A stretch of 64,000 bases of DNA from Candidatus Izemoplasma sp. GTDB lineage: Bacteria; Bacillota_I; Bacilli_A; Izemoplasmatales; Hujiaoplasmataceae. Position 1 is the first letter of the stretch. Every line of letters begins with the position of its first letter. The stretch is from NCBI GenBank assembly GCA_021736305.1, contig JAIPGD010000002.1:1-64000 (forward strand), read 5' to 3'. The notes under the pieces are model-generated. The model searched no databases, was not told the DNA's origin, and was given only the letters and a program-made list of their open reading frames with translations. Below, one piece after another: positions 40,893-57,134 of this stretch. The translations under genes were made by a program, and so were the position numbers.

Positions 40893-40970
40893 ATTGCACC
40901 TCTATATTTTATCATTTTTATTTATAGCAATCAATCAGAATTACCTGAATGTTATATTTTAAATTTTTAT

Positions 40971-41006
40971 AAAAAAGCTTGATACGATTGTATCAAACCT
41001 ATGCTT
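40971..41006 (-). repeat. Second copy of the tRNA-Leu terminator sequence
   Basis: GATACGATTGTATCAAACCTATGCTT nearly identical to 43863-43889. Confidence 0.8.
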
Positions 41007-41038
41007 TCACTATGGGTTGCATAACCTATTTTGATACA

Positions 41039-41111
41039 TTTACGCACCCCAAGTCAGATTTTACGCACCCTTGTCAAAATCTACGCACCCTTAGCCTATA
41101 TTTACGCACCC
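41039..41111. repeat. Four direct repeats TACGCACCC with 20-21 bp periodicity (iteron-like)
   Basis: Copies at 41041, 41062, 41082, 41103; unit starts 21/20/21 bp apart. Confidence 0.9.
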
Positions 41112-41375
41112 CTAAATCATGGCTTAGTTTAGCCTTTTTATTTTTAGCCATTTATCAAGTGGTAAATTCTTTGTGTCAAAATTGGTTATTCAACTATCTA
41201 TATAGTGTTCGGTATCGAACCTTATGTCTAATAATTCGTGTGCACTTTCTTTTGTTTTTATTTACGTATATTACTACAAACAGTTTTTAATAACTATACC
41301 AATCAAAATTTTGATTATTGTAACGCCCATATTATAAAGCATAATCATATTAAGCGGACAAATATAAAAACCAAA

Positions 41376-42200
41376 TCAACTAATGATTCCACAAATTCCT
41401 AATATACCTACAGTTAATCCTGCTATACCTATTACAATAAATATAATTGGCACTCCATAAATATCTGAATTCTTCATTGAATTCCAGTAGATTTTATTTG
41501 GTGTCATTTCTTGATGATTTGCGTTTTGATACATACAATAAATATGTCTGAAGCGAAATATCGCTCCCATAAGAAGATAAATAGCCATTATTAACATGAA
41601 TGTTGACATTCCAATTAGCATACCATACTCATTATTAAATAAGAAAGCTCCCCCTACCATAAATAATAGAATGAATGGTATAAAACCATATCTCCAAAAA
41701 TAGGCTAATAGCTTAACTCGTTTAACTTGCTTTTCATCTAGCAACAAAGAATCTTTATTGCTTTGATTAAGACTTTTTCTGATGTCTTTGTTCATGCCTT
41801 GAATAGATAAACTTAATGAATTATATTGAATATATTCTTCTAGTTTTACTGATAGTTCGGCTTTTTCATGAAATTGAAATATTTTATATTCAGGATAAAC
41901 CCAAGCACAACCATCTAGCAACAAAAAGAATCTATCATTTTCTTTGAAAATATATTCCATCAATAATCTGTTATTTTTTCGATACAAAATGAATGCAGTT
42001 GATTTATCATTTGTTTCATCACCAAAAACAAAAAGGACTTCATCTTCGGCAATCATCTCGAGAAGTGTCTCGTGTATAAGTCCTCCATCAGTTTCATAAT
42101 CAGAGAATTCAAATATATTAGTGTGATAAAATCCATCAACGATATAAAATGATTCCCTAATATCTTGTTTTGTAATTCCCATATATACCTCTATTATCAA
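41376..42200 (-). CDS. Hypothetical protein with C-terminal TM helices
   Basis: Long ORF with TM segments; no family recognised. Confidence 0.6.
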   Translation of the reverse strand: MIIEVYMGITKQDIRESFYIVDGFYHTNIFEFSDYETDGGLIHETLLEMIAEDEVLFVFGDETNDKSTAFILYRKNNRLLMEYIFKENDRFFLLLDGCAWVYPEYKIFQFHEKAELSVKLEEYIQYNSLSLSIQGMNKDIRKSLNQSNKDSLLLDEKQVKRVKLLAYFWRYGFIPFILLFMVGGAFLFNNEYGMLIGMSTFMLIMAIYLLMGAIFRFRHIYCMYQNANHQEMTPNKIYWNSMKNSDIYGVPIIFIVIGIAGLTVGILGICGIIS

Positions 42201-42252
42201 TTATCTCGTTTTTATTGCTGTTATACCATATTATAATTTAATACGCTTTCAG

Positions 42253-42759
42253 TTATTTAAATATTAGTAATATAGCTTTTTGTATTTCACTATGTGTCTT
42301 CTTGATTGGATTCAACTTGGTTATACTACATAATTCTTCTACGAAATTATTAAAACTATCTTTCTTTGTAATACTGAAACTTGAAAAAAACAGCGCTTTC
42401 TTGAATCCTTTTCTTTCAATCAACAAACATGAAAAGTTGCCATAGAGAACTGTCTCACTTGATGTAATGATAATGTTTTTTATATCCTTATAATCAAGTT
42501 TTTTTAATCTAAATAACGGATAGCTTTTATATACTAATCTGTTTTCTTCAAGAATTGCAGTATACTTATTTTCTTTGCCATAATAAAGTGAATATATAAA
42601 AAACAAAATCCCAAAAAGAGCAATAAAAATTGATAAAATTGGTTGTTTTAGAATAAAGAGCCCATATATTTCTACACCAATAGTAGACAGACTTAATGGT
42701 ATCATTATAAATGATGTAATAAAAGTTATGTGATTCTTATCTTTCCCTTCAATAATCAT
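42253..42759 (-). CDS. Hypothetical membrane protein, PH-like domain
   Basis: Two N-terminal TMs and PH-like strand pattern. Confidence 0.55.
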   Translation of the reverse strand: MIIEGKDKNHITFITSFIMIPLSLSTIGVEIYGLFILKQPILSIFIALFGILFFIYSLYYGKENKYTAILEENRLVYKSYPLFRLKKLDYKDIKNIIITSSETVLYGNFSCLLIERKGFKKALFFSSFSITKKDSFNNFVEELCSITKLNPIKKTHSEIQKAILLIFK

Positions 42760-42951
42760 AAGGCCCTCCTCGCTAGTTATTCAAGAATATTATGTGTTGG
42801 ATTAAGAAAATACTCTTTGCAATTATTTTTCTCATTCCTCAAATACATAAAGTGTATAAGTAAAAGTTTTCTCATTCAAAAAATACATTTTATAACTTTT
42901 TTGTTTATAAACCTAGAGGTGATTTTTAACGAGTATATTTTAAATCACTTT

Positions 42952-43467
42952 TTAAGAGGTAATAATGTTTTCACTAATTGCACTAAACTCTTTTATATCG
43001 CCATTAATATCTTGAGCTAGGAATTCAAAATTGTATAGATTGTCTTCCTTGTATAACTCGACATAAAGAATCCACCATTCAGTATTTAATTCATTTAGAT
43101 TAGTGGTTGAGACATTATAAAAATCAATGTAATTAATATTAGAATACTGACCCTTTGAATCTATCGAAACTTTTACAGAGTTATTATTGATATCAGCAGA
43201 TATTAATTTACAGTCGTGAAGATTATATAATTCAATAAGTGATTTGGGTAGTATTAATTGCATTTCTTTTTGATGAGTATAATATTTTTTCATAATTGAA
43301 TCTAATTTATTTTTTTCTTTGATATACTTCTCTATAGAACCAAACTTTTCCAGAAACATGTTATATGCATATTCATCAATTTCCTTTAATTTCTCAATCT
43401 GATCAACTGGCAATGAGCTACCAACCATTTGCATTCGTCTATATGCTTCAATATTTAATATTCTCAT
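42952..43467 (-). CDS. Hypothetical protein (DUF4085-like)
   Basis: MRILNIEAYRRMQ N-terminus and LHDCKL motif. Confidence 0.55.
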   Translation of the reverse strand: MRILNIEAYRRMQMVGSSLPVDQIEKLKEIDEYAYNMFLEKFGSIEKYIKEKNKLDSIMKKYYTHQKEMQLILPKSLIELYNLHDCKLISADINNNSVKVSIDSKGQYSNINYIDFYNVSTTNLNELNTEWWILYVELYKEDNLYNFEFLAQDINGDIKEFSAISENIITS

Positions 43468-43849
43468 GTTATACCTCCTGATTAAAAACTTGGATAATTT
43501 ATTTAGATAAGCTTAAAATAAATCCTTACACATAAGATTATATCATTTGTTAGATATTAACAAAAGTGATAATTATATTCAGTACTTTAAAAATTCCCTT
43601 CATAAAAAATGTTTTTAAAACCATCTTAAATTAAATTGAAATTATGCCTACATTATTTACAATCCTAATCAATTGGATATTATAAGTGTTTAAAATAATT
43701 CGTATAAGTAATCTGTAAATCCGTTTTAAATCTTGTATTTCAAAATGTAATCGTGTAAAAATTCTATACAAAATCTAAAATCAAGCGAAATTGATGCGCT
43801 TTTTAGGCATGGTTAATTAGAGCATATGGAGAAACGGCCCTATATAGAG

Positions 43850-43889
43850 CAAAAAAAGGCTCGATACGAATTGTATCAAACCTATGCTT
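43850..43889 (-). terminator. Terminator of tRNA-Leu
   Basis: AGGTTTGATAC-AATTC-GTATCGAGCCT followed by T7 on minus strand. Confidence 0.85.
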
Positions 43890-43895
43890 CTTATA

Positions 43896-43980
43896 TGGTG
43901 CGGCTGATGAGATTTGAACTCACACATCCATTAGATACTACCCCCTCAAGATAGCGCGTCTACCATTCCGCCACAGCCGC
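43896..43980 (-). tRNA. tRNA-Leu (GAG)
   Basis: GCGGCTGTGGCGGAATGGTAGACGCG...CTATC-TTGAGGG-GGTAG...GAGTTCAAATCTC...CAGCCGCACCA; CCA encoded. Confidence 0.95.
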
Positions 43981-52885: not shown

Positions 52886-52981
52886 ATTTTCACCTACCTA
52901 ATCTACCTATGTATTAATATACTACTAAGTACCTACTCTGTCAAGGTAGTCTATTTAAATAATTTTCATATCACGAAAAAT

Positions 52982-53043
52982 AAAAAAAACTCCCTATATC
53001 AGAGAGTATGGTTTAATATACCATATCTGCAACTTTTGGAAGC
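52982..53043 (-). repeat. Structured terminator-like element, copy 1
   Basis: AGCTTCCAAAAGTTGCAGATATGGTATATTAAACCATACTCTCTGATATAGGGAGTTTTTTTT. Confidence 0.8.
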
Positions 53044-53058
53044 TATTTCACATAAAAA

Positions 53059-53129
53059 TGGAGCAAGCGAAGAGAATCGAATCCCCATTTTCTAAATGAC
53101 AAGCAAATCTATTAATCAATACAAGTGCC
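53059..53129 (-). pseudogene. Decayed tRNA-Gly copy
   Basis: GGCACTTGTATTGATTAATAGATTTGCTTGTCATTTAGAAAATGGGGATTCGATTCTCTTCGCTTGCTCCA aligns with tRNA-Gly at 57061-57134. Confidence 0.75.
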
Positions 53130-53226
53130 TAAAAGAAAGTGTATATATAAATTATTATTTAGTTTGACCTTTATTTTAATCCTTGTTTGAGCTTTGTAAA
53201 ATTTAAAGAAACTCATTAATCAATTA

Positions 53227-53883
53227 TTAAGATTGACTCCATTGTACTAGTACTTCATAACCATTCTCTCTTACAGTTATATTATTTGCAATAATTGCAT
53301 ACTCGTTTTCGCCTATTTCAATTAAGTATACATAACAATCTCCGATATTTGGTGACCTATACGAACCTCCAGAAATCATAATAGAATTTTCTGGTATATT
53401 ATCTAAACTATCATAAGTATCATCATTAATACGATTTGTGCTTACAATACCTATGAACAGCTCATCTTCAGTTTCGTAATTTTCAATATTTGGTAGTTCT
53501 TCATTTGAATTAAACTCGTTTATTTTTTCTAGGAAATCGTCGTATGTTGAAAATGAAATAGGTAGCTGAGTGACTTGCATTTCTAGATATCCTGGAATGA
53601 TAATTGCTTTCATATCATCATTTGTATCATATCCAAAGACCACAGCAAATTCCATTTGAGGATGAGGAACCTCGTAGTAAATATCATTTTTATTTAACCA
53701 AAGTTCTATATTGCTAAAATACTTATAAACAATCATAGCAAGATTAGTAATACCAATTTCCTCTGCGACAGTTTCTGGGTAATTTTCATCAAGTTCAACG
53801 CGTCTAGTATAATCATCTGAATTGATTAAATGACATCCAGATAATATAAGTACGCTAAATAAAGCCAAAATTATTTTCTTCAT
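53227..53883 (-). CDS. Hypothetical lipoprotein
   Basis: LSGC lipobox. Confidence 0.7.
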   Translation of the reverse strand: MKKIILALFSVLILSGCHLINSDDYTRRVELDENYPETVAEEIGITNLAMIVYKYFSNIELWLNKNDIYYEVPHPQMEFAVVFGYDTNDDMKAIIIPGYLEMQVTQLPISFSTYDDFLEKINEFNSNEELPNIENYETEDELFIGIVSTNRINDDTYDSLDNIPENSIMISGGSYRSPNIGDCYVYLIEIGENEYAIIANNITVRENGYEVLVQWSQS

Positions 53884-54184
53884 ATATTTATTCTCCTAGC
53901 AACAAGATATCAGTGTTTTCACTGTATCAACATCAGAGATATTAATCTCTTCATTTAATTCATTATCTTTTTTATAGTATATCACAAATTTAGACTCATA
54001 ATAAGTGTTGTCAGATTAATTAAGAAACCCAGTTTGAACCCCATTAATAGGCTGGTCTTATGTAGAATCTAAAACAGCATATTTATATATTTGTGACTCA
54101 GATTTAGAATAAACAATAATGTTGTCATGGTCCTTGAGTATTAAATAAGTGGTTTTCGGAATTTCTATATAGATCTAATATGTA

Positions 54185-54373
54185 CTATAAAATAAGATTA
54201 ATCATCAAGATTAGAGTAATTATAAAAACCCTGCTATCGTTTACTTTATTGTGGCATTTTAAATACTCATCCTTGTAATCTTGCATAATAATCCAGTATT
54301 TTCTAGACACTTGAACTAATTTCACACTTTTTTCCCCGTTAGAATATGTAAATACCGAAATTAAGATTGTCAT
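54185..54373 (-). CDS. Small hypothetical protein, C-terminal TM
   Basis: Start overlaps toxin stop (ATGA). Confidence 0.35.
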   Translation of the reverse strand: MTILISVFTYSNGEKSVKLVQVSRKYWIIMQDYKDEYLKCHNKVNDSRVFIITLILMINLIL

Positions 54374-54635
54374 AATCTATTTAATATATCGTGATGACCT
54401 ATGTCTAACATTAATATTAAGTTTTCATCTTGATATGTCCGTATTACACATATAGACAAATTTATGCTAGACTCAAACAAAATCTCACTGCCCTTAATTT
54501 TTTTTGTTCGAAGACTTGGATGTTTATGGTTTTCAATAAATATAGATAACTTACTATAAAAACTTTCTTTTCGTAATCTTCTAACTTAGAAAAAGACTTT
54601 TTGAACTTGCTTGCGAATAGAATTTCATATTTCAT
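54370..54635 (-). pseudogene. RelE/YafQ-like toxin, frameshifted
   Basis: MKYEILFASKFKKSFSKLEDYEK / ESFYSKLSIFIENHKHPSLRTKKIKGSEILFESSINLSICVIRTYQDENLILMLDIGHHDILNRL in two frames; one-nt shift near 54561-54572. Confidence 0.75.
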
Positions 54636-54934
54636 TTCTTTTTCTCATCATCTAAATCATCATTGTTTTCATCTGATTCTTCTAAATAATTAATAGCGTC
54701 TTCTACAGAATTAAACGGGCCAACATTATACTTAGAAGGTTCTTCATTGATTCTAATAACGGTATCTTCTAATTTTTGAATGTATGATTTTGAATATACA
54801 GCTACAGGTTCAATTATTATTACACCATCCCTAACTGAGATATCTAGATGATCCCCTTCTTGAAGCTTCAATTCAGTTACGATTTCTTTAGGAATAGTAA
54901 CTTGTGATTTTTTTCTTAAATCAATTATCCTCAA
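54632..54934 (-). CDS. AbrB/SpoVT-type antitoxin
   Basis: IDLRKKSQVTIPKEIVTELKLQEGDHLDISV; ATGA overlap with toxin. Confidence 0.88.
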   Translation of the reverse strand: MRIIDLRKKSQVTIPKEIVTELKLQEGDHLDISVRDGVIIIEPVAVYSKSYIQKLEDTVIRINEEPSKYNVGPFNSVEDAINYLEESDENNDDLDDEKKK

Positions 54935-55162
54935 ATCAACTCCTTTTTCTTACTTTCTTACTTTCTAACTATCTTTTATCATTTAATAAATATATCTTCA
55001 ACACAATTGTAATTTAAATATTTTTTAAATTCACTAATTAATCGAGTAAGCTGAAATGTAATTGTGTAGAAAATGATATAGACTCACAATCCAACTAAAA
55101 TCAATCAACTTCTCGGTAATAAATAAAGGATAATTAATTGGAAAAAAGTGCCTTTTAAGCAC

Positions 55163-55223
55163 AAAAACCCCCTTCATCAGAGTGTATGTTTTAATATACC
55201 ATAACTCCAACTTTTGGAGGCGC
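55163..55223 (-). repeat. Structured terminator-like element, copy 2
   Basis: GCCTCCAAAAGTTGGAGTTATGGTATATTAAAACATACACTCTGATGAAGGGGGTTTTTG. Confidence 0.8.
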
Positions 55224-55235
55224 TCCAGAATATTT

Positions 55236-55300
55236 TGGCGAACCTAGAGCGACTTGAATCCACGACCCGTTGCATGTCTAGCAAGCGCTCTCTGCTTTAG
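55236..55300 (-). pseudogene. Degenerate tRNA, Val(GAC)-like
   Basis: GAGAGCGCTTGCTAGACATGCAACGGGTCGTGGATTCAAGTCGCTCTAGGTTCGCCA. Confidence 0.5.
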
Positions 55301-55385
55301 AATAATCTAAATATTGACTTTTTGACAGTTAAAAAATCAATTGATTCTAATATTGACTCTTATTCTCTTCTAAAAAGCAATAAAA

Positions 55386-55425
55386 AAAGGGAAAATACAA
55401 CAAATGTATTTATCCCTAAATATAG
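55386..55425 (-). terminator. Terminator downstream of decayed tRNA-Gly copy 2
   Basis: GGGA..AATACA-loop-TGTATT..TCCC followed by T7 on minus strand. Confidence 0.65.
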
Positions 55426-55435
55426 CTATAAAAAA

Positions 55436-55509
55436 TGGGGCAATCGAGGGGAATCGAACCCCCATTCTCTGCATGGCAAGCAATAAGTAAAATTGAAACA
55501 AAGACCTGT
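55436..55509 (-). pseudogene. tRNA-Gly 3'-half copy (att-like) with degenerate 5' half
   Basis: 38-nt identity TGCTTGCCATGCAGAGAATGGGGGTTCGATTCCCCTCG with tRNA-Gly; 5' half decayed. Confidence 0.85.
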
Positions 55510-55651
55510 ATATAGACGCATTTAAAAGTAGATTATGCCTTTGACCCTTATTTTGACCCTTGTAAATAATATGAGTATCCTAGTCTAATTATCATAAATG
55601 AGAGGACCGTCCTTTGATGGTCCTCTCTATTGACTTATGCGTTATGCGCTT

Positions 55652-56842
55652 TTATAATTTATTTATAAAATCCAACACATTTAAATGTACAAAATAATCT
55701 GATTCAATCATAACTGAATCAAATGAAACCAAATAACGTTTGCTCATATCTTTTAATAATGAAAAAGGTTTGGTTTCTCTTTCTCTCGTTTTAGGATCCA
55801 TGACAGACTGTGAAACTTGTACATATAACACTTGGTCTTCTTTGCTTGCGACAAAATCTATTTCTAAATCTCTTCCTATTTTTCCAACATAAACATGATA
55901 ACCATGTTTCACAAGTTCTAAATAAATAAAATTCTCAAGAATTTTACCAGTATTAGAACTTTTATTTGGAATCAATTGATCTCTGATGCCAAAATCTACC
56001 ACATAATATTTCCCATTAGTTTTTAAAATCTCTTTTCCTTTAATATCATACCGTTGACATTGATAGATGAAATATGATTTTGTCATTAAGTCCATATAAC
56101 TATCTATAGTACCGTAAGATATTTTTAATCCTAGAGAGTTTAATGTATTCGTTATTTTATTAATTGATATTGATGATCCAATATGCTCTAAAATATATCT
56201 CGCAACTCTAAAAAACATAGATTCATTCGATATATTTCCTCTCATAATCATATCTCTTCTAAAAATAGTATCAAACATATCCTGTTTCATCATAGTTTTT
56301 ATGTCTTTGTGGGTTTCTAATACCACCGCGGGAAAACTAGAATCTAAAAAATCATTATAATAAGCAAAATCTATGTAATCAATATTTTTAAAGTCTAAAA
56401 ACTCTTCATACGATAAAGGATATACATTAAATGATATGTATCTACCAGCTAAATAAGTTAAATGCTCTCCAATGAATATTCTAGCATTTGAACCAGTTAA
56501 ATAGATATCAATGTTTTCAGATGCTTTTAATGAATTAATAATTCTTGCCCAATTATCTAATTCCTGTACTTCATCAACAAATAGGTATGATTTTTTATTT
56601 GTCATTAAATTCTTTCTTACATAAGCTATAAACACATCTTTAGATTTCAAATAATCATTCTCTATGAATTCAAAATTAATATCTATGATTTGTTCTAAAA
56701 GGACATCATGGCTTAGTAGATATTGTTTTACCATCTTTAAAAGAGTTGATTTACCACTTCTACGTACACCTACTAAAATTTTAACCAAATCATTATCAAT
56801 TGTTTTAATAAGTTTGTTTAAATACAATGGTCTATTGATCAT
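55652..56842 (-). CDS. AAA+ ATPase, DUF4143 family
   Basis: VGVRRSGKSTLLKMV; YLFVDEVQEL; YLTGSNARI; C-terminal DUF4143-like. Confidence 0.9.
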   Translation of the reverse strand: MINRPLYLNKLIKTIDNDLVKILVGVRRSGKSTLLKMVKQYLLSHDVLLEQIIDINFEFIENDYLKSKDVFIAYVRKNLMTNKKSYLFVDEVQELDNWARIINSLKASENIDIYLTGSNARIFIGEHLTYLAGRYISFNVYPLSYEEFLDFKNIDYIDFAYYNDFLDSSFPAVVLETHKDIKTMMKQDMFDTIFRRDMIMRGNISNESMFFRVARYILEHIGSSISINKITNTLNSLGLKISYGTIDSYMDLMTKSYFIYQCQRYDIKGKEILKTNGKYYVVDFGIRDQLIPNKSSNTGKILENFIYLELVKHGYHVYVGKIGRDLEIDFVASKEDQVLYVQVSQSVMDPKTRERETKPFSLLKDMSKRYLVSFDSVMIESDYFVHLNVLDFINKL

Positions 56843-56983
56843 AATCCACCTCCACTTATATTATACAAAAGAGATAATGAAATTACAAGTTTTTATAAAC
56901 CAAATATAAAAATTTGTAAAAAATACATTTTTTTTGATTATCATAATGAAGCTTAAAGTAAATCTTCAGTGTTATTCTCTCAT

Positions 56984-57047
56984 AAAAAAGGCTCCCTTGA
57001 TCAGAGTGTATGGTTTTCTATACCATATCTCCAACTTTTGGAAGCCT
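56984..57047 (-). repeat. Structured terminator-like element, copy 3
   Basis: AGGCTTCCAAAAGTTGGAGATATGGTATAGAAAACCATACACTCTGATCAAGGGAGCCTTTTTT. Confidence 0.85.
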
Positions 57048-57060
57048 CTTCAATTTTAAA

Positions 57061-57134
57061 TGGAGCAAGCGAGGGGAATCGAACCCCCATTCTCTGCATG
57101 GCAAGCAGAAGTTCTACCGTTAAACTACACCTGC
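57061..57134 (-). tRNA. tRNA-Gly (GCC)
   Basis: GCAGGTGTAGTTTAACGGTAGAACTTCTGCTTGCCATGCAGAGAATGGGGGTTCGATTCCCCTCGCTTGCTCCA; CCA encoded. Confidence 0.95.

Follow-up and report, generated by a model that had tools for sequence, protein, structure and literature searches.

An IS3-family insertion sequence of Mollicutes likely addressed to tRNA and tmRNA 3' ends, with a left-end hairpin as putative replacement terminator

A hairpin element that occurs three times behind transfer RNA (tRNA) genes or their remains in Candidatus Izemoplasma sp. is, by sequence comparison, the left terminal ~71 nt (inverted repeat and leader hairpin) of a ~1.48-kb insertion sequence (IS) of Mollicutes that belongs to the IS3 family and is IS150-like. 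The stretch analysed, hereafter the window, comprises 64,000 nt (GenBank assembly GCA_021736305.1, contig JAIPGD010000002.1, positions 1 to 64,000). It is likely that a whole IS3-family clade is addressed to the 3' ends of tRNA and transfer-messenger RNA (tmRNA) genes, and that its left-end hairpin ends tRNA transcription and shields the transposase from read-through. The identity of the IS, its address, its orientation and the displacement of the native terminator at several right ends are established at the sequence level. The hairpin is predicted to act, probably, by stopping tRNA transcription in place of the gene's own terminator.

The three copies (C1 to C3) lie on the minus strand where an earlier note on this DNA had placed them, and their similarity is far beyond chance. 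With blastn against C3, C1 is 87% identical (E 2e-16) and C2 is 88% identical (E 4e-13). The tRNA contexts given in that note were also correct: C3 follows an intact tRNA-Gly, C1 a decayed tRNA-Gly and C2 a Val-like part. The search for further copies that it proposed yielded a fourth in the same genome (contig C33; 90% identity to C3, E 1.5e-21, blastn within the genome) and many in Izemoplasmatales and other Mollicutes. The copies and their flanks are as follows.

57061..57134, minus strand: intact tRNA-Gly(GCC) (ARAGORN and Rfam RF00005).
57053..57060, minus strand: 8-nt spacer TTTAAAAT from the tRNA CCA to the IS left end of C3 (sequence).
56970..57052, minus strand: copy C3, an IS left end (IS positions 1-83, 90% identity; blastn to the intact IS of L039, and fold), containing the inverted repeat, hairpin, T-run and decayed transposase start.
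55436..55490, minus strand: tRNA-Gly 3' part (anticodon arm onward) with a different terminator; an att-like scar without an IS end (sequence).
55236..55300, minus strand: Val-like tRNA 3' part before C2 (sequence).
About 55154..55227, minus strand: copy C2, an IS left end (IS positions 8-59, 90% identity).
53059..53130, minus strand: decayed tRNA-Gly 3' part before C1 (alignment to the intact tRNA-Gly).
52976..53050, minus strand: copy C1, an IS left end at CCA+8 (IS positions 1-71, 86% identity).

The repeat unit of C3 spans 56978-57052 on the minus strand, and its transposase start, ATG AGA GAA TAA, reads as dead. C2 also stands at CCA+8 once a single deleted base in its repeat is allowed for.

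Intact copies of the IS are found in the relative G004 (L039:5022-6500 and L037:17409-18887) and are 99.7% identical over 1481 bp. The IS ends of ~25 bp are TGAAGTGGCTTCCAAAAGTTGGAGA ... TCTCCAACTTTATAAAGCTAGTTCA, the right end TCTCCAACTTTATAAAGCTAGTTCA being inverted, and they carry the motif AAAGTTGGA, which we take to be IS150-like. The terminal repeats begin TG and end CA, and the element falls within the IS3-like size range of about 1.2-1.6 kb. Left and right inverted repeats show 4-7 mismatches in 25 bp and are 1475-1484 bp apart (L039, L037, L239, L242, L247-L249), and the 5' arm of the hairpin itself matches the right end as an inverted repeat. The transposase of L039 is a 449-aa frame with rve, rve_2 and HTH domains (Pfam), which scores 278.8 bits against the NCBIfam IS3-family equivalog NF033516 (cut-off 160). 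Transposase frames are single and uninterrupted in L039 (449 aa), L239 (467 aa) and L247/L248 (476 aa); the two overlapping frames with a -1 frameshift that are usual, not diagnostic, for IS3 are absent from these loci. In both intact copies the transposase gene begins directly after the hairpin, whose 3' arm holds its ribosome-binding site (RBS). Other Mollicutes families carry relatives of the IS with the same ends, intact or little decayed (L239, L242, L247, L248, L249), whose transposases are about 64-66% identical to that of L039.

The majority of copies consist of a truncated left end. In an alignment anchored at the tRNA, most begin TGAARTRGCTTCCAAAAGTTGGAGA, and by blastn their homology to the intact IS starts at base 1 in most cases and within the first 10 bases in the rest. 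Their far ends vary, the longest reaching IS position 222 (blastn). Left ends outnumber right ends roughly tenfold, by about 55 to 6 with probes of similar length, and by about 12 to 2 where the genome is complete (G001 and G004); a few copies near contig ends slightly raise the number that count as truncated.

The position of the IS relative to the tRNA is nearly invariant. The dinucleotide CA lies exactly 8 nt upstream of IS base 1 in 46 of 52 Izemoplasmatales copies, against a background CA frequency of 5.8% (P about 2e-50, assuming independent copies, which related copies are not). In most cases this CA belongs to the CCA of a tRNA or tmRNA, whole or in fragments; in the others a different element ends there. 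Twenty copies adjoin tRNA (Gly, Ala, Leu, Trp, Val) or tmRNA genes that are intact, every one at CCA+8 on the same strand, and the orientation is fixed, with the left end towards the tRNA. In a class-wide model search, CA was again exactly 8 nt upstream of 19 of 20 retrieved matches that were diverged or newly found, and eight of these adjoin intact genes for tRNA-Ser, Leu, Thr, Val, Gly and Lys; the sole exception, L255, is a weak match and probably due to chance. A pattern scan that left the gap between tRNA and TGAARTA free from 0 to 24 nt also peaks at 8. Because several of the addressed copies are full-length ISs with transposases as diverged as those above, the address is a property of the IS clade rather than of a single copy lineage. 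The earlier suggestion that the element travels with tRNA-like 3' ends thus holds, at exactly 8 nt.

Empty and filled sites locate the cut. From complete-genome tRNA flanks, the empty site at tRNA-Gly(TCC) of G004 reads CCA TATTGAAA GCATAGGTTTGATAC, and the filled site of L039 reads CCA TATTGAAA (IS) AAA GCATAGGTTTGATAC. Read from this alignment, the insertion is at the boundary of spacer and terminator, with a 3-bp duplication. A tmRNA pair, CCA TTATACAA GCATTGGTCTGATACG in G170 and CCA CATTAGCA (IS) AAA GCATTAGTCTGATACG in G386, has the same cut point, and here the 3 nt are no copy. Beyond the right end lies a native intrinsic terminator in L039, L242, L248 and L249, and likewise beyond the truncated right ends of L228 and L229; the IS therefore sits between the tRNA and its own terminator. 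The right ends in L228 and L229:1-1000 adjoin non-transposase sequence (a lipoprotein-like gene in L229) and are possibly passenger-carrying IS derivatives.

Copies were found in 21 of 61 related genomes searched. A covariance model built from the copies was then run on Izemoplasmatales, where it gave 61 matches in 24 of 90 genomes, and on a 395-genome sample of the class, where 30 genomes had matches, several of them in other Mollicutes families. An exact-motif scan of 84,980 species genomes returned 25 stretches, all in metagenome-assembled or other genomes titled Izemoplasmatales, Tenericutes, Mycoplasmatota (CP076020, strain zrk2) or with other Bacilli/Firmicutes names. This distribution fits a lineage-restricted element.

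The hairpin has the features expected of the earlier note's structured, terminator-like element. The best structure is a single long imperfect hairpin with internal loops, followed by a T-run. C3 folds at -27.8 kcal/mol (z -5.9 against shuffles), while C1 and C2 are weaker (z about -2.6). The stem is stable and the T-run immediate: folds in the window range from -16 to -28 kcal/mol, and nearly all copies have T-runs of at least 4. Compensatory changes in the outer pairing, also claimed earlier, are real but modest; over 43 copies, 12 cells changed on both sides versus 6.5 in shuffles, and 1 of 500 shuffles reached 12. The most conserved part of the element is the 5' strand, as would be expected if this strand doubles as a protein-binding inverted repeat.

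We propose that transcription leaving the tRNA would meet the IS hairpin and its T-run and stop there. On read-through, the 3' arm of the hairpin (GAAGGGAG; GGGAG), which carries the transposase RBS, would stay paired to the inverted repeat, so that the RBS would be hidden and the IS protected from the strong transcription of the gene beside it. For the leader, the predicted fold has -26.9 kcal/mol (z -4.8) when it includes the 5' arm, versus -6.5 kcal/mol (z -0.4) with the RBS free when it does not. After decay of the IS, the left end would persist, since the tRNA would now rely on it as a terminator. The survival of left ends beyond the rest of the IS fits this proposal of termination and RBS masking.

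Several observations weigh against this account. Of the 3-4 bp target-site duplications expected in the IS3 family, a clean one is present in one copy only (AAA, L039, compared with the empty site), and the 3 nt differ in others (L037 ACT/ATT, L242 AAC/ATA, L248 GCA/AAA, L249 GAA/TTA). Several copies follow the ends of other elements rather than tRNAs. Because at least two element types share the +8 position, the address is perhaps not exclusive to this transposase. TGAARTA at +8 also opens some native terminators of tRNAs that are free of the IS (Trp and Leu in G001, Trp in G056). Finally, the hairpins at intact tRNAs are no more stable than those elsewhere (p = 0.64), a comparison that gives no sign of selection as a terminator.

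The strongest competing explanation, though an unlikely one, is that the hairpin is the outer half of a tyrosine-recombinase att site (CCA-N8-hairpin, with N8 as the 8-bp overlap). The hairpin would then have been spread between tRNAs by tyrosine-recombinase units and not by the IS, which would lie by chance in one such left end. In favour of this, the same 8-mer flanks both unit ends in L046 (AAAAAAGC), L052 (TAATAAAT), L050 (TAATGGCT, four times) and L008 (TCTGGTTA), the units are non-autonomous and end in tRNA 3' halves, and N8 varies among tRNAs. Yet the IS, which in several families has an intact transposase and an inverted right end to match, is the only complete mobile structure bounded by this left end. 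These arrays also contain left ends of other kinds, such as the native Val terminator in L050, and in L037 and L242 the IS occupies +8 of an intact tRNA with neither a tRNA fragment nor an integrase close by. Integrases are present in the genomes; none was seen adjoining the copies, and one carrier genome has none at all. An 8-bp direct-repeat rule for all units was considered and rejected, as it holds in L046, L052, L050 and L008 and fails in L038.

It is considerably less probable that the hairpin originated as a terminator of the host's tRNA and tmRNA genes, was copied with tRNA duplications and was later taken by the IS as its left end. The twenty copies behind intact tRNA or tmRNA genes of many kinds would suit such an origin, as would the native terminators in two families that begin TGAARTA at the same place. 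Against it, orthologous tRNAs in sister genomes have unrelated terminators, and the copies extend into the transposase coding sequence, up to 150 nt past the hairpin, and their 5' arm is an inverted repeat of the IS right end. The earlier note's own reading of a three-way-junction, tRNA-linked regulatory RNA, to which three conserved, structured copies beside tRNAs had pointed, can be set aside as highly improbable: minimum free energy folds and energies speak against the junction, the alternative with a CCAA/TTGG side-hairpin being 9.5 to 14 kcal/mol worse than the single hairpin (window copies and intact IS), no Rfam 15 family matches the element at gathering score (the window matches only T-box and tRNAs), and homology to the intact IS, including the transposase start, from the first base in nearly all copies makes it an IS left end instead of a stand-alone RNA.

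The +8 position is also used by other element types (ends ..AACCCA, ..AAGACA), whose distance to the IS, or to a hairpin of a second type, is likewise exactly 8 nt. In G004 the 8-mer TATTGAAA of tRNA-Gly(TCC) recurs ~33 kb away in front of an IS, a hint of the 8-bp duplication that another element would give. The window itself holds a second tRNA-addressed unit (40950-43980, minus strand). It starts from the CCA of tRNA-Leu(GAG) and continues with 8 nt, a different terminator hairpin (GCATAGGTTTGATAC..), three genes of unknown function, four GGGTGCGTAAA repeats and the end ..GGTTATGCAACCCA, followed by 8 nt and the same hairpin again. The end that bears these repeats (GGGTGCGTAAA, AAAATAGGT..CCCA), unchanged or in a closely similar form, is found in other Mollicutes families (L243, L247, L254, L256), there exactly 8 nt before the IS left end; two element types therefore share one address.

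A wider proposal, which we hold to be about evenly balanced, is that an IS3 clade across Mollicutes reads tRNA and tmRNA genes as its target, probably through the invariant T-arm about two helical turns upstream. It would insert at a fixed distance and orientation whatever the tRNA or spacer, its leader hairpin would replace the terminator and make the insertion harmless, and at least one unrelated element type would use CCA+8 too. The 3' ends of tRNAs are classic docking sites of integrases. The literature searched (open-licence papers only) contained no IS3-family DDE element that keeps a constant 8-nt distance and a single orientation behind nearly every tRNA or tmRNA, and no precedent for a target-specific IS3, a tRNA-downstream IS or a mollicute or Izemoplasma element of this kind. 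The system would be a simple setting in which to ask how a transposase might gauge how far it is from a tRNA gene. A second implication is that a mobile element may make its insertion at an essential gene tolerable by supplying a substitute terminator that also silences the element's own transposase. The same reading would account for the odd tRNA-linked hairpins of Izemoplasmatales islands.

The island of the window carries three cargo genes.

55652..56842, minus strand: AAA_14/DUF4143 ATPase gene, between C3 and C2 (Pfam PF13173 and PF13635).
54632..54934, minus strand: MazE/AbrB-type antitoxin gene (Pfam PF04014).
53227..53883, minus strand: lipoprotein gene (Pfam LPAM_1).

In the sister genome G001 the equivalent tRNA-Gly has a plain terminator and none of the island genes, so the 4-kb stretch between C3 and C1 was acquired. 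This stretch is interrupted by tRNA 3' fragments, and C1 and C2, which stand on such fragments, would be left ends that subsequent integrations into this site have moved away from the tRNA. Similar tRNA-anchored arrays of small non-autonomous units recur in L050, L046 and L052. In L050:1-10200 (minus strand), tandem small units lie in tRNA-Val: four tRNA-Val 3' halves, each followed by TAATGGCT, are 1.2-3.4 kb apart, and the units carry lipoprotein or membrane genes and no recombinase. L046:765-2694 contains a 1855-bp unit (hairpin, ATPase gene, tRNA-Val 3' part) between identical 8-mers AAAAAAGC, as expected of a unit inserted whole. AAA_14/DUF4143 ATPase genes are repeated cargo directly behind left ends, in the window and in L038, L039, L046 and L052; in L052 such a gene is joined in a fusion to the opening codons of the IS transposase. 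As they are present in several units but not consistently, these ATPases were rejected as a component of the system and treated as cargo.

With the IS3 family and its IS150-like members, the element shares a DDE rve transposase above the NCBIfam cut-off, TG...CA inverted ends, a length of ~1.48 kb and, in one case, a 3-bp duplication. It differs from them in its single ~450-aa frame, its fixed address and orientation 8 nt behind tRNA or tmRNA, a left leader that forms a long terminator-like hairpin with the transposase RBS, and right ends that are mostly lost. IS10 and IS50 mask the transposase start in read-through RNA. There too, pairing between the left-end inverted repeat and the segment around the transposase start is confined to RNA that was begun outside the element; the present hairpin differs in closing with a T-run immediately after a tRNA gene, which makes termination the likelier first effect. 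Site-targeting ISs, such as those of REP or attC sites, likewise have strong sequence or context specificity of insertion; the target here, in contrast, is a distance from the tRNA 3' end with a variable 8-nt spacer. Tycheposons and genomic islands in tRNAs have cargo arrays that end in tRNA 3' fragments, as are also seen around these copies. Tycheposons and similar tRNA-integrated elements use tyrosine recombinases that act within the tRNA sequence, whereas the element described here is a DDE IS that lies outside it.

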